Positions 4,678 to 14,582 of a DNA stretch of 14,732 nucleotides are shown piece after piece. Made by a program: the position numbers and the translations under genes. The stretch spans positions 1-14,732 of the forward strand of contig JAJFTY010000040.1 in the NCBI GenBank assembly GCA_021372695.1, in the 5' to 3' direction. The notes beneath the pieces were generated by a model. That model ran no database searches and had not been told where the DNA came from. It was given only the letters and a program-made list of their open reading frames with translations. The stretch is from Deltaproteobacteria bacterium (GTDB lineage: Bacteria > Desulfobacterota > Syntrophia > Syntrophales > UBA5619). How positions within the stretch are numbered: the first letter of the stretch is position 1; each line of letters opens with the position of its first letter.

Positions 4678-4883
4678 ATCAGCGACACCGCGCAGCCGGC
4701 CAAGCCTCCGGCGCAACCCTTACCTTCTTTCCCGATCTTTTCGATCCCCCATTGTCCGGCGAAACGGCCCGGCAAAAATCGAACCGCCCCATGGAGAGGT
4801 CAGCGGAGAGAGCGGAATCCCGTCTCCACGACCCACAGGCGGCGGCATCGGCGAGACCACCCCCAGGGACGAAAAAAAAAGAT
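4678..4883. other. Non-coding stretch between protease and regulator promoter
   Basis: This is the first part of a 333-nt gene-free interval (4678-5010). It holds only a weak hairpin GCCGG/CCGGC (4695-4712) followed by a pyrimidine-rich run that might help end protease transcription, and a short A-run (4872-4880) just before the promoter at 4884. I see no gene or RNA family here. Confidence 0.4.
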
Positions 4884-4912
4884 TTGACATCGGCGGGCAG
4901 TTTTGTTATTAG
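4884..4912 (+). promoter_or_regulatory. Sigma-70-type promoter P1 of the IclR regulator/TRAP-1/catabolic operon
   Basis: A perfect -35 box TTGACA (4884-4889) is followed after 17 nt by TATTAG (4907-4912) as -10. An A-rich tract lies directly upstream and could act as an UP-like element. The predicted transcription start is near 4919, giving a leader of about 92 nt before the regulator ATG at 5011. The same layout recurs at 12673-12701. Confidence 0.78.
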
Positions 4913-4936
4913 GAACACGGTTCCGCATTATGGAAC
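4912..4936 (+). promoter_or_regulatory. Predicted IclR-family operator O1
   Basis: A perfect inverted repeat GTTCC-GCATTAT-GGAAC lies at 4920-4936. A third half-site, GGAAC at 4912-4916, forms another palindrome with the left arm (GGAAC-ACG-GTTCC, 4912-4924). The site begins at the -10 box and covers the predicted start, so binding should block transcription. The core recurs with one arm mismatch (GTTTC) at 12709-12725 with identical spacing from its promoter. Assignment to the adjacent IclR protein is inference from position and symmetry. Confidence 0.75.
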
Positions 4937-5010
4937 TTACTCTCTGGCGGAGGATCCCCTTCCGCCGGTCCGGCAGGGTGATCGCCCTTATTGAAGAAGG
5001 ACAGGAGCCT

Positions 5011-5835
5011 ATGGAACGCAAAACAGCCCAATCCAAGCCGAACAATCTGGTCCAGACTATCGAGCGGGTATCCCTCATCCTCGATATGGTGGGGAACGCC
5101 CCCCACGGGATGAGCATCAAGGATCTCTCTGCGGGCCTGAATCTTCCGAAGGGGACGATTCACCGCATTCTCTCCTCTCTTTCCTATTTCGGCTACATTC
5201 GCCAGGATCCGGAGACGAAGATCTATTTTCTGGGCCTGAAGCTGATGGATCTGAATGCACAGTTGAGCAACCAACTCGATTTCCGCAAGGTCGCGGAGCC
5301 GATCCTGAGGGATCTGGTGGAGAGGACCAAACAGACGGCGCATCTGGTCATCCTGGACCGGGAAGAGGTGGTCTATATCGACAAGATCGAAACACAGCAA
5401 CCGGCCGGCGGCCTGAAAATGGCGTCACGCATCGGTTCGCGGAATCCGATTCACAGCAGTGCGGTAGGGAAGGCGCTGCTCGCCCATCTGCCGGAGGAGG
5501 CCTGGGAAGCCTTCCTGCAAGACAAGGGGCTTCCCCGGCGCACCGTGAACACCATCACGGACCCCGTAACATTCCGAAGCCATCTGAAAAGCGTCCGGAG
5601 TCAGGGATACGCGATCGACGACGAGGAGAACGAACAGGGAATCCGTTGCGTGGGCGCCCCCATTTTTGACGGGAAAGGGCGGCCTGTGGCCGCCGTCAGC
5701 CTTTCGGGTTCCGTCTTCCAGGTGACCAGGAAAGCCGTCCACGATGTCATGAAGGGAGAGGTGATGGATGCCGCAGCCGAGATTTCCCGGAGACTGGGTT
5801 TTTCGGGCGAAATGCCGGGACGCAGCAGGAGTTAG
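5011..5835 (+). CDS. IclR-family transcriptional regulator (likely local repressor of the ketodeoxyuronate regulon)
   Basis: From the ATG at 5011 the protein has 274 residues, normal for IclR. A winged helix-turn-helix covers about 12-75 (SIKDLSAGLNLPKGTIHRILSSL), followed by the effector domain (about 90-265) with YIDKIETQQP, HSSAVGKALLAH and the IclR signature around GYAIDDEENEQG and RCVGAPIFD. The frame is open upstream to 4903, but that would run through the promoter and operator; ACAGGAG at 5001-5007 next to the ATG supports the 5011 start. It is the first gene of the operon and is preceded by a palindrome (4920-4936) also found before the second TRAP operon, so autorepression and control of both units are predicted. 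By analogy with KdgR, an IclR-family regulator responding to KDG, a pathway intermediate is the likely effector, but this is not shown by the sequence. Confidence 0.92.
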   Translation: MERKTAQSKPNNLVQTIERVSLILDMVGNAPHGMSIKDLSAGLNLPKGTIHRILSSLSYFGYIRQDPETKIYFLGLKLMDLNAQLSNQLDFRKVAEPILRDLVERTKQTAHLVILDREEVVYIDKIETQQPAGGLKMASRIGSRNPIHSSAVGKALLAHLPEEAWEAFLQDKGLPRRTVNTITDPVTFRSHLKSVRSQGYAIDDEENEQGIRCVGAPIFDGKGRPVAAVSLSGSVFQVTRKAVHDVMKGEVMDAAAEISRRLGFSGEMPGRSRS

Positions 5836-5943
5836 GCAATCGCGGGTTGAAGCGAGGGCAAGAGGCCGCCGGCGATCGTTCGATGGATCAGGGGGGTGCC
5901 GGCGGGATTTCATTTTGAAACCATTATGAATCGGGGGGAAAAT

Positions 5944-6933
5944 ATGAAAAAAACAGTGTTGATGGTTCTTCTGTTGTCGGTCGTTTTCATTCCGTTTGCC
6001 CATGGGGCCTCTTCCAAACCGATTGAGATGAAGCTGGGCCATTTCGCTGCGGATGCCCACCCGGGCAACCTGGCCAGCAAGATGTTCGCCGAGGCAGTTG
6101 AAAAACGGACGAACGGGGCGATCAAGGTCACGATCTATCCCAACAACGCCTTGGGCGCACCGCCGGAGGTCCTCGAGCAGAACATCCTGGGTGCCGTGGA
6201 CATGAGCCTGCCCACGCAGGGGCAGTTGGGGAAGTATTCCAAGAAATTCAATTGCGTCATGCTGCCCTTCATGTTCAACGACTACGCCCAGGCCGACAAG
6301 GTTCTGGACGGCGTATTCCTCAAATGGGCCGCGCCGGATCTGGACAAGGCCGGGCTGGTGTTCCTCTCCAACTGGGAATGGGGATTCCGCAACCTGACGA
6401 ACAGCAAGCATCCGGTCAACGTTCCGGCGGATGTGAAGGGGCTCAAGATCCGCACCCCGCCGGAACTGCCCACGCAGGCGGCCATGGAGGCGCTGGGCGC
6501 CGTTGTGGCTACGATCAATTTTAATGAGCTTCAGATGGCCCTGAAAACGGGGGTCGTCGACGGCCAGGAAAACCCGATCGCTGTCATCCACTCCAACAAG
6601 ATCTACGAAACGCAAAAATATCTGGCCATGACCGGCCACAACTACGGCTCGATGGTCCACGTGATCAGCAAGAAGGTCTGGGACAAACTGACTTCGGCGC
6701 AGCAGAAAATCGTCCGCGAGGAGAGCAAAAAAGCCGGCGACTGGATGAGGAAGAGCTGCCGCGACGCCGAATCGACGCAGATCAAGGATCTTCAGGGATT
6801 CGGGATGGAGGTCACCTATCCCGACAAGAAGGCCTTCAAAGCGCTCATGAAGCCTGCCTACGACCGGATGGCTGCCATCGCGGGCGAGGACAACATCGCG
6901 ACCTTCACCAAGATGGTGGAGGCGGCGAAGTAG
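5944..6933 (+). CDS. dctP: TRAP transporter 1 substrate-binding protein (DctP family)
   Basis: From the ATG at 5944 the protein has 329 residues, typical for DctP. Residues 1-21 form a signal peptide (MKKTVLMVLLLSVVFIPFAHG) with likely cleavage at AHG-A; mature protein is periplasmic. The fold markers are VDMSLPTQGQLG, LPFMFNDY, the substrate-carboxylate-binding Arg170 in GLKIRTPPELPTQ, and DGQENP (about 206-211). Upstream in-frame ATGs exist (5896, 5929) but G6 at 5933-5938 lies 5 nt before 5944 and the signal peptide starts there. It lies 108 nt after the regulator gene with no convincing promoter of its own, so it is probably read through from P1. Context suggests an acidic sugar (uronate, unsaturated uronide or KDG) as ligand; the sequence alone does not fix it. 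Confidence 0.92.
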   Translation: MKKTVLMVLLLSVVFIPFAHGASSKPIEMKLGHFAADAHPGNLASKMFAEAVEKRTNGAIKVTIYPNNALGAPPEVLEQNILGAVDMSLPTQGQLGKYSKKFNCVMLPFMFNDYAQADKVLDGVFLKWAAPDLDKAGLVFLSNWEWGFRNLTNSKHPVNVPADVKGLKIRTPPELPTQAAMEALGAVVATINFNELQMALKTGVVDGQENPIAVIHSNKIYETQKYLAMTGHNYGSMVHVISKKVWDKLTSAQQKIVREESKKAGDWMRKSCRDAESTQIKDLQGFGMEVTYPDKKAFKALMKPAYDRMAAIAGEDNIATFTKMVEAAK

Positions 6934-6946
6934 TCTGATCGGAAAT

Positions 6947-6996
6947 CGGCAGGGCATCGGGACCGGACGCAATCGCCGATCCCGATGCCTTTGCCG
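6947..6996 (+). promoter_or_regulatory. Intercistronic stem-loop between dctP and dctM of TRAP 1
   Basis: GGCATCGGGA (6953-6962) pairs perfectly with TCCCGATGCC (6980-6989) around a 17-nt loop. A lower stem CGGCA (6947-6951) with TGCCG (6992-6996) extends it past a small internal bulge. It lies 13 nt after the dctP stop and is not followed by a T-run. It is more likely an mRNA-stabilising or partial-termination element that raises the binding protein over the membrane subunits than a full terminator. Confidence 0.65.
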
Positions 6997-7061
6997 TCAT
7001 CCTTTCATCGTCGGGAAGATCGGAACCAAACGCAAGTCCGGATGCATCCAAGGGGCCATCC

Positions 7062-8351
7062 ATGCTGACACTGTCCATCTTTGCCGTGCTTCTGCTGTTC
7101 ATCATCCTGAACATCCCCATCGCCGTTGCCATGGGGCTGACGGCGATCATCTTCTTCATCGGCTTGGGAAACGCGTCGCTCCTGACGATGCTGCCGCAGC
7201 GGATGTACGCCTCCACAACGGGCTTTACGCTGCTCGCGATTCCCTTCTTCATCCTGGCGGCAAATCTGATGAATACGGGCGGGGTGACGAGCCGGATCTT
7301 CCGCTTCGCCAAGGCCGTGGTTGGCCATATCCCGGGAGGCCTCGGCCAGGTATGCGTCATCGCCAACGTCATCTTTTCCGGGATGTCGGGCTCGGCGATC
7401 GCGGATGCGGCTGGCTTGGGTCAGGTCCTCCACAAGGCCATGGTGGACAACGGCTTCAGACCGCAATTTTCTGCTTCCATCGTGGCTGCCGCAGCGACCA
7501 TCGGCCCCGTGATCCCCCCGAGCATCCCCTTTGTCCTCTACGGGGCGCTGACCGGGGTCTCCGTCGGCAAGCTCTTCCTGGCCGGTTTCATCCCCGGGGT
7601 GCTCATGGCCGTGGCGATCATGGCGGCCATCGCCCTGCGGGCCAAAAGCGAAAATCTGCCGAAGGAAAAACGGGCCGATTTCGCGGAGGTCGTCGCCAGC
7701 ACGAAATCGGCGTTCCTGCCCCTGCTCACGCCGGTCATCATCATCGGCGGGATCCTCGTCGGGGTCTTCACTCCGACGGAGGCGGCGGTGGTCGCCTCCC
7801 TGTACGCGCTGTTTCTGGGATTCTTCTACCGGGATCTCAAATGGAAGGACCTGCCGGATATCTTCTGGGCGTCGATCCGGCAGACGGTCAGCCTGCTTTT
7901 CATCATCTCGGCGGCCGGATTTTTCGGCTGGCTCACCATCCATCAGAAGATTCCCGACCAGATCATCCTCTCGCTGACGGGCATGAGCCTGTCGCCGGCG
8001 GGGGTCATGGCGATGATCATCGTGATCCTCCTGATTCTCGGCTGTTTTCTTGAGGGGAATGCGATATTCATCATCACGATCCCGATCTTCATGCCGATCG
8101 CGCAGCAGTTCGGGATCGACCTTCTCAACCTCGGCGTCGTGATGACCCTGCTGATCATGGTGGGGAACCTGACGCCGCCCGTGGGGATGTGCCTCTTCGC
8201 GGTCTCCAGTTTCAGCAACGTGAGCATTGGGGCCCTCTCCAAGGAGATCGTTCCGTATCTGATCGGGATTTTCATCGTCACGGTCTTCATCGCCTATGTT
8301 CCGCAGATTTCCACTTTCCTGCCGAATCTGCTGATGGGGGGGAGGGGATGA
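7062..8351 (+). CDS. dctM: TRAP transporter 1 large permease subunit (DctM)
   Basis: A 429-residue, very hydrophobic protein of normal DctM length with about 12 membrane segments. Family landmarks are GGVTSRIFRFAKAVVGHIPG, then the conserved NVIFSGMSGSAIADAAGLG stretch, IGPVIPPSIPFVLYG, FTPTEAAVVASLYAL and GNLTPPVGMCLFAVSS. DctM carries the sodium-coupled translocation path of the tripartite transporter in the inner membrane. AAGGGG near 7050-7055 precedes the ATG by about 6 nt. It follows dctP after a 128-nt gap holding a strong stem-loop and overlaps dctQ by 4 bp. The order P-M-Q differs from the common P-Q-M order that is used by the second transporter in this window. Confidence 0.95.
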   Translation: MLTLSIFAVLLLFIILNIPIAVAMGLTAIIFFIGLGNASLLTMLPQRMYASTTGFTLLAIPFFILAANLMNTGGVTSRIFRFAKAVVGHIPGGLGQVCVIANVIFSGMSGSAIADAAGLGQVLHKAMVDNGFRPQFSASIVAAAATIGPVIPPSIPFVLYGALTGVSVGKLFLAGFIPGVLMAVAIMAAIALRAKSENLPKEKRADFAEVVASTKSAFLPLLTPVIIIGGILVGVFTPTEAAVVASLYALFLGFFYRDLKWKDLPDIFWASIRQTVSLLFIISAAGFFGWLTIHQKIPDQIILSLTGMSLSPAGVMAMIIVILLILGCFLEGNAIFIITIPIFMPIAQQFGIDLLNLGVVMTLLIMVGNLTPPVGMCLFAVSSFSNVSIGALSKEIVPYLIGIFIVTVFIAYVPQISTFLPNLLMGGRG

Positions 8352-8866
8352 AAATGGATAAGATGATGGACTTCTTGGCTTCTATCGACGGACTGGTTCT
8401 CAAGGCGCTCAAGGTCGTCACGATCGTCGTTTTCATTCTGCTGACGATCCTGATCACGGCCAATGTGATCGTCCGCTTTTTCCCCATCGTTTCACTGCAC
8501 TGGTTCGATGAGATCATCGAGATGCTCTACGCCTACCTCGTCTTTTACGGCGCGGCTGCTCTGTGGATCCTGCGGGGCCACATCAGCGTGGGGGACTGGA
8601 TCGAGAAGAGCATCTCCAACCTTCGCCTGCGGCGTCTTTACCGGGCATTCGTCGAGCTTCTGGTGCTGGTCTTTGCCGCGTTCTTCTTTTACTACGCCCT
8701 GAGACTGACCGTCCTGGCGCTGGATGTCACGAACGTTTTCCAGATTCCCAAGAGGGTTCTCTATTCCTGCATGCCGGTTGCCGGCGCCCTCATGGTGATC
8801 TATTCACTCCGCAACATCGCGGTCGAACTTATCGAGCTTGGAAGAGTCGGAAGAGGAGAGGCATGA
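8348..8866 (+). CDS. dctQ: TRAP transporter 1 small permease subunit (DctQ)
   Basis: A 172-residue protein with four predicted membrane helices (about 21-43, 57-76, 100-123 and 139-158), the DctQ topology. The family-typical acidic/aromatic stretch WFDEIIEMLYAYLVFYGAA and the GHISVGDWIE loop (about 77-86) are present. It pairs with DctM in the inner membrane. The ATG at 8348 overlaps the dctM stop (ATGA), which favours coupled translation; the in-frame ATG at 8354 has better spacing (8 nt) from GGAGG at 8341-8345 and is a fair alternative. The gene ends overlapping the aldolase start, so dctM-dctQ-eda form one translationally coupled block. Confidence 0.92.
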   Translation: MKMDKMMDFLASIDGLVLKALKVVTIVVFILLTILITANVIVRFFPIVSLHWFDEIIEMLYAYLVFYGAAALWILRGHISVGDWIEKSISNLRLRRLYRAFVELLVLVFAAFFFYYALRLTVLALDVTNVFQIPKRVLYSCMPVAGALMVIYSLRNIAVELIELGRVGRGEA

Positions 8867-9831
8867 TGAACGACATCATCAAAAAAATCGAGGATTATGG
8901 CATTGTCCCGGTGGTCAGAATCGAAAAAGCGGCGGACGCCGTCCCCCTGGCGAAAGCCCTCTGCGAAGGGGGACTGTCGCTTGCGGAGATTACCTTCCGA
9001 ACCGCTGCCGCGGAGGAGGTGATCCGGACCCTGACGGAGAAGGCGCCGGAACTGATCGTGGGCGCCGGAACGGTGCTCACGACCGAGCAGGCCCAGGCGG
9101 CAATCCGGGCGGGCGCCCGCTTCATCGTTTCCCCGGGATTCAATCCGAAGATCGTCTCTTTCTGCTGCGAGAAGGGGGTTCCGGTGATCCCGGGCGTGAA
9201 TTCGCCGACCCAGATCGAAGCGGCGATGGAGTGCGGGCTTCGCACCCTCAAATTTTTCCCCGCCGAGGAGTCGGGCGGCGCTGCATTCCTGAAGGCGGTT
9301 GCCGCTCCCTACGAGGGAGTCCGGTTCATCCCGACGGGCGGGGTCAACGCCGCAAACCTCATCTCCTATCTCTCCCTGAAAAACGTTGCCGCCTGCGGCG
9401 GCAGCTGGATGGTGAAGACGGAGCTGATTTCGGGCGGAAAATTTGCGGAGATCACGCGGCTCGTACAGGAGGCGATCCGCATCCTGCTCGGCTTCGAGCT
9501 TACCCACGTCGGCGTCAATCAGGAAGACAGCCAACAGGCCAGCAAGAGCGTGGATCACTTTTCCCGCCTTTTCCGTCTCGCGGTCGCGGAGGGGCAGAGC
9601 TCCTATTTCCTCGGAGAGAAGGAGATCGAGGTTCTGAAGGCACCCGGCCGGGGGGAAAAAGGACACTTGGCTATTGCGACGAACGACGTCGACAGGGCGC
9701 TCTTTTACCTCGCCCGGCAGGGCGTCGCGCCCGTTTCTGGGACGGAGAAACAGAAGGATGGAAAAACGGTTCTGGTCTATCTGGATTGCGAGATCGCCGG
9801 ATTCGCGATCCATCTCCGGAAGAAAGGATGA
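8863..9831 (+). CDS. eda: KDPG aldolase (Eda-type) with C-terminal VOC/glyoxalase-like domain
   Basis: A 322-residue protein, about 110 residues longer than ordinary KDPG/KHG aldolase. Residues 1-208 are a class I aldolase (TIM barrel) that splits 2-keto-3-deoxy-6-phosphogluconate into pyruvate and glyceraldehyde-3-phosphate: GIVPVVRI, Glu42 and Arg46 in AEITFRT, GAGTVLT, the Schiff-base Lys130 in TLKFFPAE and the phosphate-binding PTGGVN (158-162). Residues about 211-322 form two short beta-alpha-beta units (LTHVGVN..., EIEVLKAP, GHLAIATNDVDRAL, GFAIHLRKK) like a VOC domain; His215, Glu256 and His268 sit where metal ligands often occur. I recall similar fusions in Clostridia, so the architecture is unlikely to be unique, but the role of the added domain is unknown. 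ATG 8863 overlaps the dctQ stop; ATG 8866 has better spacing from AGGAG (8854-8858). Confidence 0.9.
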   Translation: MMNDIIKKIEDYGIVPVVRIEKAADAVPLAKALCEGGLSLAEITFRTAAAEEVIRTLTEKAPELIVGAGTVLTTEQAQAAIRAGARFIVSPGFNPKIVSFCCEKGVPVIPGVNSPTQIEAAMECGLRTLKFFPAEESGGAAFLKAVAAPYEGVRFIPTGGVNAANLISYLSLKNVAACGGSWMVKTELISGGKFAEITRLVQEAIRILLGFELTHVGVNQEDSQQASKSVDHFSRLFRLAVAEGQSSYFLGEKEIEVLKAPGRGEKGHLAIATNDVDRALFYLARQGVAPVSGTEKQKDGKTVLVYLDCEIAGFAIHLRKKG

Positions 9832-9834
9832 GAA

Positions 9835-10869
9835 ATGGCCATGAAGAAGATCGTGACCTTCGGCGAGATCATGCTGAGATTGAAGGCTCCAGGGAGCGAC
9901 AAGCTCTTTCAGAGCCCGACACTGGAGGCGACCTTCGGAGGAGGGGAGGCGAACGTGGCCGTGGGGCTGGCCCGCTTCGGATTGGATGCGGCCTTCCTGA
10001 GCGTGATCCCCCAGAACCGGATCGGGGATGCCTGCATCGCGGAACTGAGAAGGCATGGCGTCGATACCTCCCGTATCGTCCGGAAGGGAAAGAGACTCGG
10101 CATCTATTTTCTGGAGGCCGGGGCGAATCAGCGGCCCTCCGTCGTCATCTATGACAGGTTGCACTCCGCGATCGCCGAGGCCGCACTCGGAGAAATTTCC
10201 TGGGACGGGGCCTTTTCCGGGGCCGGATGGTTCCACATCACGGGGATCACCCCAGCGATTTCGGAATCCGCCGCCCTCCTTTCGATGGAGGCGGTGATGA
10301 AGGCCAAGGGAAAGGGTCTGACCGTCTCCTGCGACCTCAACTACCGCAAGAATCTGTGGAAATACGGCCGGAAGGCGCAAGAGGTGATGACGGAAATCGT
10401 GAAGCACGTGGATATCGTCATGGCCAACGAGGAGGACTGCCAGATGGCCCTCGGCATCTCGGCCGATTCGGACGTGGAGTCCGGGAAGATGGAAACGGAT
10501 CCCTACCGGCGGCTTACGGAGAGGGTGCTCGAACAGTTTCCGGCCATCCGGAAGATCGCGGTGACGCTCCGGGAAAGCCATTCCGCGGACCACAACGGCT
10601 GGTCGGCGGTTCTGAACAACCGGAGCGAGCTCCTGATTTCACGGAAATACGAGATCCGGGACATCGTGGATCGGGTGGGGTCGGGCGATTCGTTTGCGGC
10701 AGGTCTGATCTATGGGTTCCAGGAGCTGAAAACGGACCGGGAAGCCCTGGAGTTCGCGGTCGCCGCCTCCTGCCTGAAACATTCGATCCCGGGTGATCTG
10801 CCGCTGCTTTCGGTGGGAGAGGTTCAGGCGCTGGTCGGGGGACAGGCCTCGGGCAGGGTGCAGAGATAG
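9835..10869 (+). CDS. kdgK: 2-keto-3-deoxygluconate kinase (PfkB/ribokinase family)
   Basis: A 344-residue PfkB-family sugar kinase. It has the N-terminal FGEIMLRL strand, the GG-containing substrate motif [16 protein letters not shown] (34-49), [11 protein letters not shown] (165-175) and the C-terminal ATP/anion-hole motif [16 protein letters not shown] (279-294) with catalytic Asp285. DLNYRKNLW is typical of KDG kinases, which form KDPG for the aldolase encoded just upstream. AAAGGA at 9823-9828 is 6 nt before the ATG at 9835, and only 3 nt separate it from the aldolase stop. A 5-residue insertion-like acidic stretch around 209-222 ([14 protein letters not shown]) makes it slightly longer than many KdgK proteins. 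Other PfkB sugar kinases are possible from sequence alone; the operon makes KDG the clear choice. Confidence 0.9.
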
Positions 10870-10969
10870 TGGACGGCGGGATGGGCTCCCGGTCCAATGC
10901 GTGCTCACGGGAATTGGTTCTCGGTACTGTAAAGAATGACATGAGAGATAGGAAGCGAGGAGAATGACC

Positions 10970-11800
10970 ATGGATATCCGTTACGCCGTACATCCGGACC
11001 ATATGAAGACGCTGGACACCCGAGGGATCCGGGACCTTTTTCTGGTGGAGAACCTCTTTGAGAAGGATGGGCTGAACCTGGTCTACAGTCATATCGATCG
11101 GATCATCGCCGGAGGGGTCTGCCCCGTTGAGGGGAAGGTGGCGCTCCAGGGGACCAAGGAGCTGGGCGTCGATTTCTTCCTCCAGCGGCGGGAGGTCGGG
11201 ATCATCAACATCGGCGCCGCCGGTACCGTCACCGTCGACGGAAAGGAGTACACGCTCGGCAACAAGGAGTGCCTCTACATCGGCATGGGGGCCAAAGAGG
11301 TCTCCTTCGCGAGCGCCGACCGGAACGACCCGGCCCTGTTTTACCTCAACAGTGCACCGGCGCACGCCGCTTATCCCATCGTGAAGATCTCCCTGACCGA
11401 TGCGCAGCGGCTCGACCTGGGCGATCCGGTCAAGGCGAACGTTCGGACGATCTACCAGTTCATCCACCCGAAGGTGCTCAAGAGCTGTCAGCTCGTGATG
11501 GGGCTCACGATTCTGGCGCCGGGGAGCAACTGGAACACGATGCCCTGCCATACCCACGACCGCCGCATGGAGGTCTACCTCTATTTCGACATGCCGGCCG
11601 ATGCCGTGGTGTTCCACCTCATGGGAGCGCCCGCGGAGACGCGGCATATCGTCGTCCGCAACCGGCAGGCCGTCATTTCGCCGAGTTGGTCCATCCATTC
11701 CGGGGTCGGCACCGGCAGCTACACCTTCATCTGGGGAATGGTCGGGGAGAATCAGACCTTTACGGATATGGACGATGTGCCCATGTCGACATTGAAATAG
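10970..11800 (+). CDS. kduI: 4-deoxy-L-threo-5-hexosulose-uronate ketol-isomerase (5-keto-4-deoxyuronate isomerase)
   Basis: A cupin-fold isomerase that turns 5-keto-4-deoxyuronate into 2,5-diketo-3-deoxygluconate in the cytoplasm. It is similar to E. coli KduI along its length: [56 protein letters not shown] and [27 protein letters not shown]. The zinc ligands are all present (His194, His196, Glu201, His243 in this numbering, matching 196/198/203/245 of E. coli). An ATG at 10964 is only 1 nt from the Shine-Dalgarno GAGGAG (10957-10962); the ATG at 10970 has 7-nt spacing and gives the expected MD(I/V)R start, so it was chosen (276 residues). The 100-nt gap after kdgK holds a small hairpin (10877-10891) but no convincing promoter. 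Confidence 0.96.
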
Positions 11801-11825
11801 AACATCCCTATCAAAGGAGACTGTC

Positions 11826-12611
11826 ATGATACTGGATCGTTTCACCCTTAAAGGCAAAGTGGCTTTCATCACCGGTGCCTCCTACGGCATCGGGTTCGCG
11901 ATCGCCAAGGCGTACGTCGAGGCCGGCGCAAGAATCGTCTTCAACGATATCAAGCAGGAGTTGGTCGACAAGGGGCTCGCTGCCTATAAGGAAGCGGGCA
12001 TTCAAACCCGCGGTTACGTCTGCGATGTGACCGATGAAAATGCCGTCCACGAAACCGTGAAGCGGATCGAGGAGGAAGTCGGCGTCATCGACATCCTGGT
12101 GAACAACGCCGGCATCATCAGACGCATCCCAATGCTGGAGATGAGCGCTGCCGAGTTCCGTAAGGTGATCGACGTGGATCTCAACGCGCCCTTCATCGTA
12201 TCCAAGGCCGTCATCCCCTCCATGATCAAGAAGGGTCACGGTAAGATCATCAACCTCTGCTCGATGATGAGCGAGCTTGGACGGGAGACCGTTTCCGCCT
12301 ATGCCGCCGCCAAGGGCGGACTCAAGATGCTGACCCGGAACATCTGCTCCGAGTACGGGCAGTATAATATCCAATGCAACGGGATCGGACCCGGGTATAT
12401 CGCCACACCCCAGACCGCTCCGCTCCGCGTCGACGGTCATCCTTTCAACAGCTTCCTCATTGCCAAGACGCCGGCGGGTCGCTGGGGAACGACGGAGGAT
12501 CTCACGGGACCGGCGGTTTTCCTTGCGTCCGATGCGTCGGATTTTGTCAACGGACACATCCTCTACGTCGACGGAGGCATACTTGCGTATATCGGCAGGC
12601 AGCCATCGTAA
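11826..12611 (+). CDS. kduD: SDR-family 2-keto-3-deoxygluconate (2,5-diketo-3-deoxygluconate) dehydrogenase, KduD-type
   Basis: A 261-residue classical short-chain dehydrogenase. It shows the dinucleotide motif TGASYGIG (16-23), CDVTD (66-70), NNAG (93-96), and catalytic Asn120, Ser146, Tyr159 and Lys163 (YAAAK). The stretch NIQCNGIGPGYIATPQTAPLR is shared by KduD and gluconate 5-dehydrogenase-like enzymes. Position directly after kduI (25-nt gap) points to KduD, which reduces 2,5-diketo-3-deoxygluconate to KDG with NAD(P)H; pure sequence cannot exclude gluconate 5-dehydrogenase. The Asp at 41 after the second strand suggests preference for NAD(H), a general SDR rule. AAAGGAG at 11813-11819 lies 6 nt before the ATG. 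It is the last gene of the first operon; a promoter begins 61 nt after its stop. Confidence 0.9.
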   Translation: MILDRFTLKGKVAFITGASYGIGFAIAKAYVEAGARIVFNDIKQELVDKGLAAYKEAGIQTRGYVCDVTDENAVHETVKRIEEEVGVIDILVNNAGIIRRIPMLEMSAAEFRKVIDVDLNAPFIVSKAVIPSMIKKGHGKIINLCSMMSELGRETVSAYAAAKGGLKMLTRNICSEYGQYNIQCNGIGPGYIATPQTAPLRVDGHPFNSFLIAKTPAGRWGTTEDLTGPAVFLASDASDFVNGHILYVDGGILAYIGRQPS

Positions 12612-12672
12612 AATGCGGCGCAGGTGCGTTTTCCCGCGGAAATGAAGGACTGGGCCGGGACCCGGATAAAAG

Positions 12673-12701
12673 TTGACATGCAGGAAAGGTTTTGTTATAA
12701 A
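12673..12701 (+). promoter_or_regulatory. Sigma-70-type promoter P2 of TRAP operon 2
   Basis: TTGACA (12673-12678), a 17-nt spacer and TATAAA (12696-12701) make a near-consensus promoter. It is the closest match to consensus in the window. The predicted start is near 12708, so dctP2 would have a leader of about 237 nt. From 12690 to 12725 it matches the P1 region 4901-4936 at 31 of 36 positions with no gaps. Confidence 0.85.
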
Positions 12702-12708
12702 GATCACG

Positions 12709-12733
12709 GTTTCGCAATATGGAACGATGTTCC
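12709..12733 (+). promoter_or_regulatory. Predicted IclR-family operator O2
   Basis: GTTTC-GCAATAT-GGAAC (12709-12725) is the counterpart of O1 with one arm mismatch, again starting 7 nt after the -10 box and lying over the predicted start. An extra half-site GTTCC at 12729-12733 forms GGAAC-GAT-GTTCC with the right arm, whereas in O1 the extra half-site is on the upstream side. Confidence 0.75.
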
Positions 12734-12944: not shown

Positions 12945-13943
12945 ATGAAAAAGTTTAAGCGTTCCGTTCTGGTCATCATGAGCATCATAGCAATCACGTT
13001 CGGCATCCACGCAGTCGGCTTGGCAGCGGATCAGATGGTGCTGAAGCTCTCCGAGATTCACGGCAAGGGATACCCCACCGAGCTGGCCGACGAGGAGTTC
13101 GCCCGTCTGGTCAATCAGTACACCAAGGGGCAGATCAAGGTCGACGTCTTCCCCGGTGGCCAGATCTCCGGCGATGAGAAGGTGGTTATCGAGCAGGTCA
13201 AGATCGGTGCCATCGCCATCGCCCGCGTCAGTTCAGGAGCTCTCGGCTCCTTCAACCCCCAGCTCAACGTCTTCGCGCTGCCCTTCATCTTCGATTCGAA
13301 GGATCACATGTGGTCGTTCCTGAACGGCAAAGCAGGCCAGAAGATGCTTGCGGATCTCGCCCCCTCGGGATTTGTCGGCCTCTGCTGGTATGACGGCGGC
13401 GCCCGCTCCTTCTACGCCAACTATCCGCTCAACACGATTGCGGACCTCAAGGGCAAGAAGTTCCGCGTGATGCCCAACGCCATTCTCGTCAAGATGGTCG
13501 AGGCCATGGGTGCAAGCGCCGTTCCGATGGGCGCCGGGCAGGTATTCAGCGCGATTCAGACCAAGGTCATCGACGGCGCGGAGAACAACGCGCCTTCGCT
13601 CATCTCCTTCAACCACTACCAGGTTGCCAAATACTACATGCTCGACGAGCATCTCCGTCTTCCCGAGGTCCTCTTCATGAGCAAGATCGTTTGGGACAAG
13701 CTCAGCAAGGACCAGCAGGCCGCCCTCCGCAAGGCTGCCGTCGAGACTGTGAAATTCCAGCGCGCGAAGTGGGATGCCTACGAAATCGAGGCCCTCAACA
13801 AGATCAAGGCGGAAGGTGAGATCGTCGTCGAGATTAAGGACAACACCCCCTTCCGAAACGCGGTCAAGCAGCTGCTGGCCGAGGAGTCGCCGAAGTTTGC
13901 CGAAACGATCAAGGAGATCAATGCGGCCAAACCGAAGAAATAA
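12945..13943 (+). CDS. dctP: TRAP transporter 2 substrate-binding protein (DctP family)
   Basis: From the ATG at 12945 the protein has 332 residues. A basic/hydrophobic signal peptide covers about 1-27 (MKKFKRSVLV..., cleavage near GLA-A). Family markers are the N-terminal strand VLKLSEIHGKGYP, the KVDVFPGGQISG and FALPFIFDSKDHMW stretches, YDGGARSFY with Arg154, the carboxylate-binding Arg174 in GKKFRVMP, and IDGAENN (209-215). GGGAGG 6 nt upstream of 12945 supports this start over the in-frame ATG at 12894. It is clearly a different subgroup from the first DctP of the window, so the two transporters probably take different ligands. Upstream lies a near-consensus promoter with an operator like that of the regulator gene; downstream is a perfect 10-bp stem-loop before dctQ. 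Confidence 0.93.
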   Translation: MKKFKRSVLVIMSIIAITFGIHAVGLAADQMVLKLSEIHGKGYPTELADEEFARLVNQYTKGQIKVDVFPGGQISGDEKVVIEQVKIGAIAIARVSSGALGSFNPQLNVFALPFIFDSKDHMWSFLNGKAGQKMLADLAPSGFVGLCWYDGGARSFYANYPLNTIADLKGKKFRVMPNAILVKMVEAMGASAVPMGAGQVFSAIQTKVIDGAENNAPSLISFNHYQVAKYYMLDEHLRLPEVLFMSKIVWDKLSKDQQAALRKAAVETVKFQRAKWDAYEIEALNKIKAEGEIVVEIKDNTPFRNAVKQLLAEESPKFAETIKEINAAKPKK

Positions 13944-13980
13944 AGAAGGATCGATCCTGTAACGATTGAGGCGGGGTCCC

Positions 13981-14004
13981 GTTTGAGGCGGCCTCGCCTC
14001 AAAC
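13981..14004 (+). promoter_or_regulatory. Intercistronic stem-loop between dctP and dctQ of TRAP 2
   Basis: GTTTGAGGCG (13981-13990) and CGCCTCAAAC (13995-14004) pair perfectly around the loop GCCT. TTGAGGCGG also occurs at 13966-13974 as a direct repeat of 13983-13991, so an alternative, longer-loop pairing with the right arm is possible. No T-run follows at once. The place, just after the binding-protein gene and 20 nt before the dctQ ribosome binding site, suggests attenuation or 3'-end protection of the dctP message. Confidence 0.7.
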
Positions 14005-14036
14005 CGTTGTTCATCATCAGTACAAGGAGGATTCCC

Positions 14037-14582
14037 GTGCTCGTAAAGAAAGCTCCCGTGCCCGAAAAGAGAGGTCCCGTGCGGAGTTTTTTGCTGAAGA
14101 TCGACAAGGCCATCGACGGCTTCTGTATCATCCTGCTGGTGGCCATGATCCTGATCGTCGTGATGGCGGTCATCACCCGCAAGGGGTTCGGCTGGATGTT
14201 TGCCTGGTCCGAGGAAATCACCCTCCTCTGTCTCACCTGGTTCACCTTCATGGGCATCGCGGTCGGCTTCCGCGAGCGGCTCCACCTCAGCATGGACCTC
14301 ATAGACGCAGACAAGTTACCCCCGAAGTTGCTCTGGGTTTCCGACCGTTTCATCGATCTGGTCACCTTTTTCTTCGGCCTCTACCTGGTCATCTATGGCT
14401 GGAACTTTGCCATGTCGATGCGGGGATCGATCCTTTCGGCCACCGAGATGCCGAACCTGGTCCAGTACATCGTCATGCCGATCACCGGCGTGATGACCTG
14501 CGTCTACGCGGGGCTCCAGTTTATGGGCCATGATCTGCGCCGTTACAACGTCATAGAAGAGGAGATTAAACGCGATGCCTAA
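14037..14582 (+). CDS. dctQ: TRAP transporter 2 small permease subunit (DctQ)
   Basis: The chosen start is a GTG at 14037, 6 nt after a perfect AAGGAGG (14024-14030), giving 181 residues. An in-frame ATG at 13983 lies inside the stem-loop, has no ribosome binding site and would add an Arg-rich stretch, so it was rejected. Four membrane helices are seen (about 27-47, 61-79, 105-122, 142-162) with the DctQ-typical WSEEITLLCLTWFTFMGIAVGF followed by RLHLSMDLID. It forms the membrane complex with the DctM encoded directly after it, whose ATG overlaps the dctQ stop by 8 bp. Confidence 0.92.
   Translation: MLVKKAPVPEKRGPVRSFLLKIDKAIDGFCIILLVAMILIVVMAVITRKGFGWMFAWSEEITLLCLTWFTFMGIAVGFRERLHLSMDLIDADKLPPKLLWVSDRFIDLVTFFFGLYLVIYGWNFAMSMRGSILSATEMPNLVQYIVMPITGVMTCVYAGLQFMGHDLRRYNVIEEEIKRDA

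Follow-up and report, generated by a model that had tools for sequence, protein, structure and literature searches.

The closest described counterparts of the elements analysed here are the operators of IclR-family regulators compiled by Suvorova and Gelfand 2021 (PMC8222616, the source throughout). Within group 1 of these sites, the GTT-11-AAC subgroup has the consensus GTTYCRYW3RYGRAAC and comprises 1364 sites in 54 orthologous groups; sugar and sugar-acid genes are common in it, and its delta/epsilon share amounts to 1.36%. Tandem IclR sites, 18-22 nucleotides (nt) apart, occur in 94 orthologous groups, and the usual zone of most IclR sites extends from -20 to -80. The gamma-proteobacterial KdgR box, RWWGAAACGNCGTTTCAKKA (Table 1 of the same article), has a group 2 arrangement. 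Here, we describe a 14,732-nt stretch of contig JAJFTY010000040.1 from a Deltaproteobacteria bacterium (the window), in which two similar promoter regions, one preceding a gene for an IclR-family regulator and the other preceding a second TRAP (tripartite ATP-independent periplasmic) transporter operon, carry predicted tandem operators. Judged from their sequence, these operators are a well-supported new example of a described type of IclR site; they do not represent a novel type of switch.

A preliminary description of the window had reported twin promoter/operator blocks, and what it observed in them was borne out. The regions 4901-4936 and 12690-12725 share 31/36 positions without gaps, and no other ungapped 36-mer pair of the whole window is as similar (the runner-up reaches 28/36); one base further (4900-4936), the match is 32/37. 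From base composition, the probability of at least 31/36 identities is 7e-14, or approx. 8e-6 across all position pairs. The hexamer TTGACA occurs twice on the + strand, at 4884 and 12673, and this offset of 7789 equals that of the blocks. In both promoters it is separated by 17 nt from the -10 box (TATTAG or TATAAA), and an inverted repeat of the reported GTTyC-N7-GGAAC form begins 7 nt after that box (GTTCC-N7-GGAAC at 4920-4936 and GTTTC-N7-GGAAC at 12709-12725). The neighbourhoods outside the blocks are indeed unlike each other, with identities of 23/100 upstream (4784-4883) and 25/100 downstream (4937-5036). With up to three mismatches, the 17-mer motif proposed at that stage matches only the two block sites within the window, where shuffles give an expectation of 0.08 (1 of 200 shuffled windows also yielded two matches).

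Each block can be read as two 17-bp palindromes whose centres lie 20 bp apart, a weaker upstream one that includes the -10 box and a strong downstream one. The elements are as follows.

4884-4889, + strand: -35 box TTGACA of the iclR promoter, recognised by sequence; its distance to the palindromes is equal in 11/11 strong sites
4900-4916, + strand: weaker upstream palindrome of operator 1, GTTTTGTTATTAGGAAC, 14/17 to GTTYCRYW3RYGRAAC
4907-4912, + strand: -10 box TATTAG of the iclR promoter, inside the upstream palindrome of operator 1
4920-4936, + strand: strong downstream palindrome of operator 1, GTTCCGCATTATGGAAC, 17/17 to the same consensus, over the predicted start
12673-12678, + strand: -35 box TTGACA of the TRAP 2 promoter, likewise recognised by sequence
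12689-12705, + strand: weaker upstream palindrome of operator 2, GTTTTGTTATAAAGATC, 13/17 to the consensus
12696-12701, + strand: -10 box TATAAA of the TRAP 2 promoter, inside the upstream palindrome of operator 2
12709-12725, + strand: strong downstream palindrome of operator 2, GTTTCGCAATATGGAAC, 17/17 to the consensus

Both downstream 17-mers follow the published consensus throughout (PMC8222616), and the earlier suggestion of a possibly new motif therefore falls; a new motif class was rejected on the same 17/17 match. The contrast drawn with the classical enterobacterial KdgR box stands, as the conserved palindrome is GTTYC-N7-GRAAC and does not correspond to RWWGAAACGNCGTTTCAKKA. The 20-bp distance between centres lies within the 18-22 nt of the tandem sites known from part of the IclR family. 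Apart from the two 17/17 sites, the window scores 14/17 against the consensus at 1 position and 13/17 at 7.

Relatives of the regulator (the best 80 of 387, L001-L080) fall into L001-L027, mostly deltaproteobacterial metagenome-assembled genomes with 47-84% identity, and L028-L080, mostly Firmicutes. A site was counted if it had at most two mismatches to GTTYCRYWWWRYGRAAC and lay between -300 and +30 of iclR; L009, with 28 nt upstream, was left out. The palindrome is present at iclR in 21 of the 26 mostly deltaproteobacterial relatives, with approx. 0.23 expected (the background is 11 matches in 407,531 bases elsewhere). When these 21 sites were aligned with the two of the window and scored by a leave-one-out matrix, the mean score at offset -20 was +5.9, and the remaining offsets within 45 bp (the site itself excluded) ranged from -18.9 to -57.5; this offset ranks first among upstream offsets in 19 of the 23 sites. 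Both outer halves of the upstream palindrome are conserved (RTTYC in 16/23 and GRAAY in 22/23; no other offset exceeds 3 and 7, respectively), and this palindrome is therefore more than a shared -10 box. A single palindrome beside an unrelated conserved promoter was rejected, given the second palindrome at -20 and the conservation of both its outer halves. A three-box site of the published type (PMC8222616) was also weighed; it is contained within the tandem reading, in which the fourth box, too, is conserved (16/23).

The 155 genomes of the order to which G001 belongs were scanned with a 34-base double-site pattern drawn up after inspection of the sites in the window, L001, L002, and L004. 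With at most one mismatch, the pattern occurs at nine sites, distributed over 5 genomes; seven of them lie ahead of iclR, TRAP, or TTT (tripartite tricarboxylate transporter) genes, and the other two ahead of contig ends that resemble the iclR leader. The six sites that had not informed the pattern are G002:C108 (before DctQ-DctM), G003:C177 (before a relative of dctP2), G004:C151 (before TctB-TctA), and three in G131, of which one precedes DctQ-DctM-DctP and two precede the contig ends. The first three had been seen earlier as single 17-mers, in a scan of which their upstream halves were not part. The G003 relative of dctP2 is 94% identical over the compared part, with the double-site module 146 nt before its ATG. 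In all 11 strong sites (2 in the window and 9 from the scan), TTGACA stands at a constant distance and is followed by GTTTTG(T/C)TAT. A close iclR (E up to 1e-90) is found in only 4 of the 155 genomes, G001-G004, and all four carry the module. TTT genes (TctB, TctA, and TctC) stand under a double operator in G002 (L002 55-3340) and G004 (L109 1-2954). Six matches with three mismatches, in six genomes, are probably due to chance (a reversed control gave 2); one of them, in G002, stands before an aldose 1-epimerase gene. Within this context, the local IclR regulon of the preliminary description is supported by the 21/26 relatives and by a module near iclR, TRAP, or TTT genes in five genomes, but its account of the operator was incomplete: much of the apparent promoter conservation is the upstream palindrome, and the predicted operator is a tandem pair of which only half had been noticed.

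Very probably, tandem IclR operators lie over both promoters, and the protein encoded at 5011-5835 uses them to repress TRAP operon 2 as well as its own operon until a pathway intermediate releases it. In such a mechanism, a sigma-70-type promoter would be overlaid by the tandem operator, with the upstream palindrome on the -10 box and the downstream palindrome on the transcription start. The 20 bp between palindrome centres correspond to two DNA turns, and a pair of IclR dimers, perhaps joined as a tetramer, would bind on the same face of the DNA and shut RNA polymerase out of the -10 box and the start. The targets would be the regulator's own operon (iclR, TRAP 1, aldolase, kinase, KduI, and dehydrogenase), presumably transcribed as one unit, and TRAP operon 2. 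Release would most likely be brought about by 2-keto-3-deoxygluconate (KDG) or a ketodeoxyuronate.

Several observations weigh against this reading or narrow it. Three of the nine strong sites of the scan (G001 iclR, G004 iclR, and G002:C228) had informed the pattern. Five of the 26 relatives lack a palindrome in the -300 to +30 interval at iclR: in L002 the site heads a TctBAC-containing stretch running to iclR; in G003 (L003) it precedes the relative of dctP2, on a contig whose end shares 13 bases with the start of L003; L005 and L017 have, by eye, degraded palindromes near iclR; and L016 has none near iclR, its nearest palindrome lying approx. 1.6 kb upstream. Offset -20 is not the top-ranked one in L015 and L020 (rank 2), L027 (rank 6), and L024 (rank 50). 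The single 17-mer with two mismatches is not specific at the scale of whole genomes, as four genomes contain 31-40 matches each versus 18-39 in the reversed control. The likely dctP2 ATG lies 228 nt from the centre of operator 2 (the leader that follows this operator is 219 nt long), which places the operator beyond the published zone of -20 to -80 (PMC8222616). The DctP genes located 3' of the SDR (short-chain dehydrogenase/reductase) gene in L001 and L004, which are 45% and 40% identical to dctP2 of the window, have no good site ahead of them (best 13/17 and 12/17), and the second TRAP operon is therefore not generally under such control. Among the 53 Firmicute-type relatives, neither the group 1 palindrome (4/53, 1.8 expected) nor the group 2 one (3/53, approx. 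1.2 expected) is clearly enriched. Finally, three strong sites are present in G131, although its assembly contains no close iclR.

As a separate observation, the Firmicute-type relatives (approx. 40% identity) mostly lack the motif, and a motif of their own was not found among them; the operator seems to differ between the deltaproteobacterial and Firmicute-type groups.

The situation in G131 bears on the alternative that these are IclR-family operators, but are bound by a paralogue encoded elsewhere in the genome. The motif class is common to much of the IclR family (PMC8222616), and G131 has only two IclR genes, with identities of 38% and 28%. Nonetheless, the sites track iclR itself, both in the 21/26 relatives and in 4/4 genomes of the scan with a close iclR, and the absence of iclR from G131 is probably an assembly loss. 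Downstream of two G131 operators, the next 58 bases share 46 and 48 identities with the iclR leader of L001 (other leaders in the comparison reached 20-37), and this likeness suggests that the assembly breaks at iclR. A paralogue, IclR2 (approx. 30% identical to the iclR product), is encoded beside the iclR locus in relatives, where SDR and TRAP genes and a separate palindrome accompany it (L001 7243-9162, L004 3698-5613, and L122 423-2061). Its palindromes in L001, L004, and G131, of the same broad class, score 15, 14, and 15 of 17, and the -20 position scores 2, 4, and 5 of 17; a single palindrome of its own without a -20 partner argues against the paralogue, although not decisively. Binding by a paralogue is thus an unlikely explanation, and the regulator encoded at 5011-5835 is preferred. 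With regard to the two G131 contigs, C15 and C43 end in a near-equal operator and iclR-like leader (L122 1-92 and L123 1-92), and it looks as if two iclR copies or strains broke the assembly.

It might also be assumed that the regulator activates transcription, or acts both ways depending on its ligand, instead of repressing. PcaU and PobR, members of the IclR family, are activators, and a PDB title also calls PobR a transcriptional activator. Activators usually bind upstream of the -35 box, whereas the palindromes here sit on the start and the -10 box, downstream of a -35 box with the perfect TTGACA sequence; this arrangement fits repression, and activation has a correspondingly low probability. 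That the blocks are alike as two strong sigma-70 promoters, through recent duplication, or by chance is scarcely credible: the -10 box makes up part of the block and both copies lie at one locus, but the flanks are unrelated, the chance is approx. 8e-6, the palindrome halves beyond the -10 box are conserved, and the module is found in other genomes ahead of different genes and with different spacer sequence. The relatives, the offset matrix, and the genome scan already contradict this explanation.

Operator block 1 ends 74 nt ahead of the start of the IclR-family gene. The genes that follow are listed below.

5011-5835, + strand: IclR-family regulator gene, 274 aa, with Pfam HTH_IclR and IclR_C
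5896-8866, + strand: TRAP transporter 1 (DctP, DctM, and DctQ); the first open frame begins at GTG, and start sites are provisional
8866-9831, + strand: KDPG/KHG aldolase with a C-terminal extension of approx. 115 aa; passes the curated cut-off
9835-10869, + strand: PfkB-family sugar kinase, KDG-kinase-like by profile matches, below every KDG-kinase model cut-off
10964-11800, + strand: KduI, 5-dehydro-4-deoxy-D-glucuronate isomerase, 447.9 bits vs. a cut-off of 250
11826-12611, + strand: SDR dehydrogenase, above the cut-off of gluconate 5-dehydrogenase PRK07097 and below that of kduD
12945-14582, + strand: TRAP transporter 2 (DctP and DctQ); the DctP open frame runs from GTG 12894, with the likely ATG at 12945

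The regulator belongs to the IclR family by its Pfam scores (HTH_IclR 49.9 and IclR_C 170.8, with gathering scores of 22 and 24), and the nearest solved structure is 1mkm (E 2e-44). It scores 201.8 bits with the BhcR model (NCBIfam NF045644.1, cut-off 350) and 181.1 bits with the KdgR model (NCBIfam PRK15090.1, cut-off 275), its second-best NCBIfam match; as both values are below the cut-offs, the name KdgR is not warranted on sequence alone. The label of ketodeoxyuronate catabolism, also given in the preliminary description, is secure where KduI and the KDPG aldolase are concerned and less so for the other two enzymes. The dehydrogenase scores 496.7 with PRK07097 (cut-off 369) and 230.8 with kduD (cut-off 338.85), and in the profile search the kinase reached none of its curated models at cut-off. 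The aldolase domain spans residues 5-199; the extension has no Pfam match and by eye resembles a glyoxalase-type (VOC) domain. In L001 (10001-11960), iclR is directly followed by a 52-aa DctQ1-like remnant, and DctP1 and DctM1 are missing, which reflects either an intra-operon deletion or faulty assembly.

For an IclR protein that is so far uncharacterised, this analysis provides a specific predicted operator and a small predicted regulon; the Syntrophales-type bacteria concerned are represented here by metagenome-assembled genomes. The shared predicted control takes in two TRAP operons and a TTT operon of relatives, which aids the prediction of transporter cargo. It is possible, albeit rather doubtful, that a fixed cassette of TTGACA, -10 palindrome, and start palindrome spread as a unit in the Syntrophales-type group, tying TRAP and TTT transporters to the degradation of sugar acids derived from uronates; in that case, the TTT systems of G002 and G004 might take up a uronate-type sugar acid rather than a tricarboxylate. 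The published motif class and tandem arrangement also extend to a lineage that is hardly sampled in the article (PMC8222616). This regulon was not found in the literature searched, with the supplements of PMC8222616 and RegPrecise lying outside the search.

Compared with the GTT-11-AAC operators (PMC8222616), the downstream palindromes of the window agree in full, and the sugar-acid gene setting and tandem spacing are shared; the upstream palindrome differs in being degenerate and fused to the -10 box. With gamma-proteobacterial KdgR, the locus shares an IclR-family protein beside genes of the KDG/uronate pathway, whereas its operator belongs to group 1 instead of following RWWGAAACGNCGTTTCAKKA, and its predicted regulon includes TRAP and, in relatives, TTT transporters. 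Operator 1 also resembles the three-box sites given in the article for PcaU, PobR, and HmgR, as it holds the alternating boxes GGAAC-N3-GTTCC-N7-GGAAC. However, a fourth box is conserved here, and tandem palindromes fit better.

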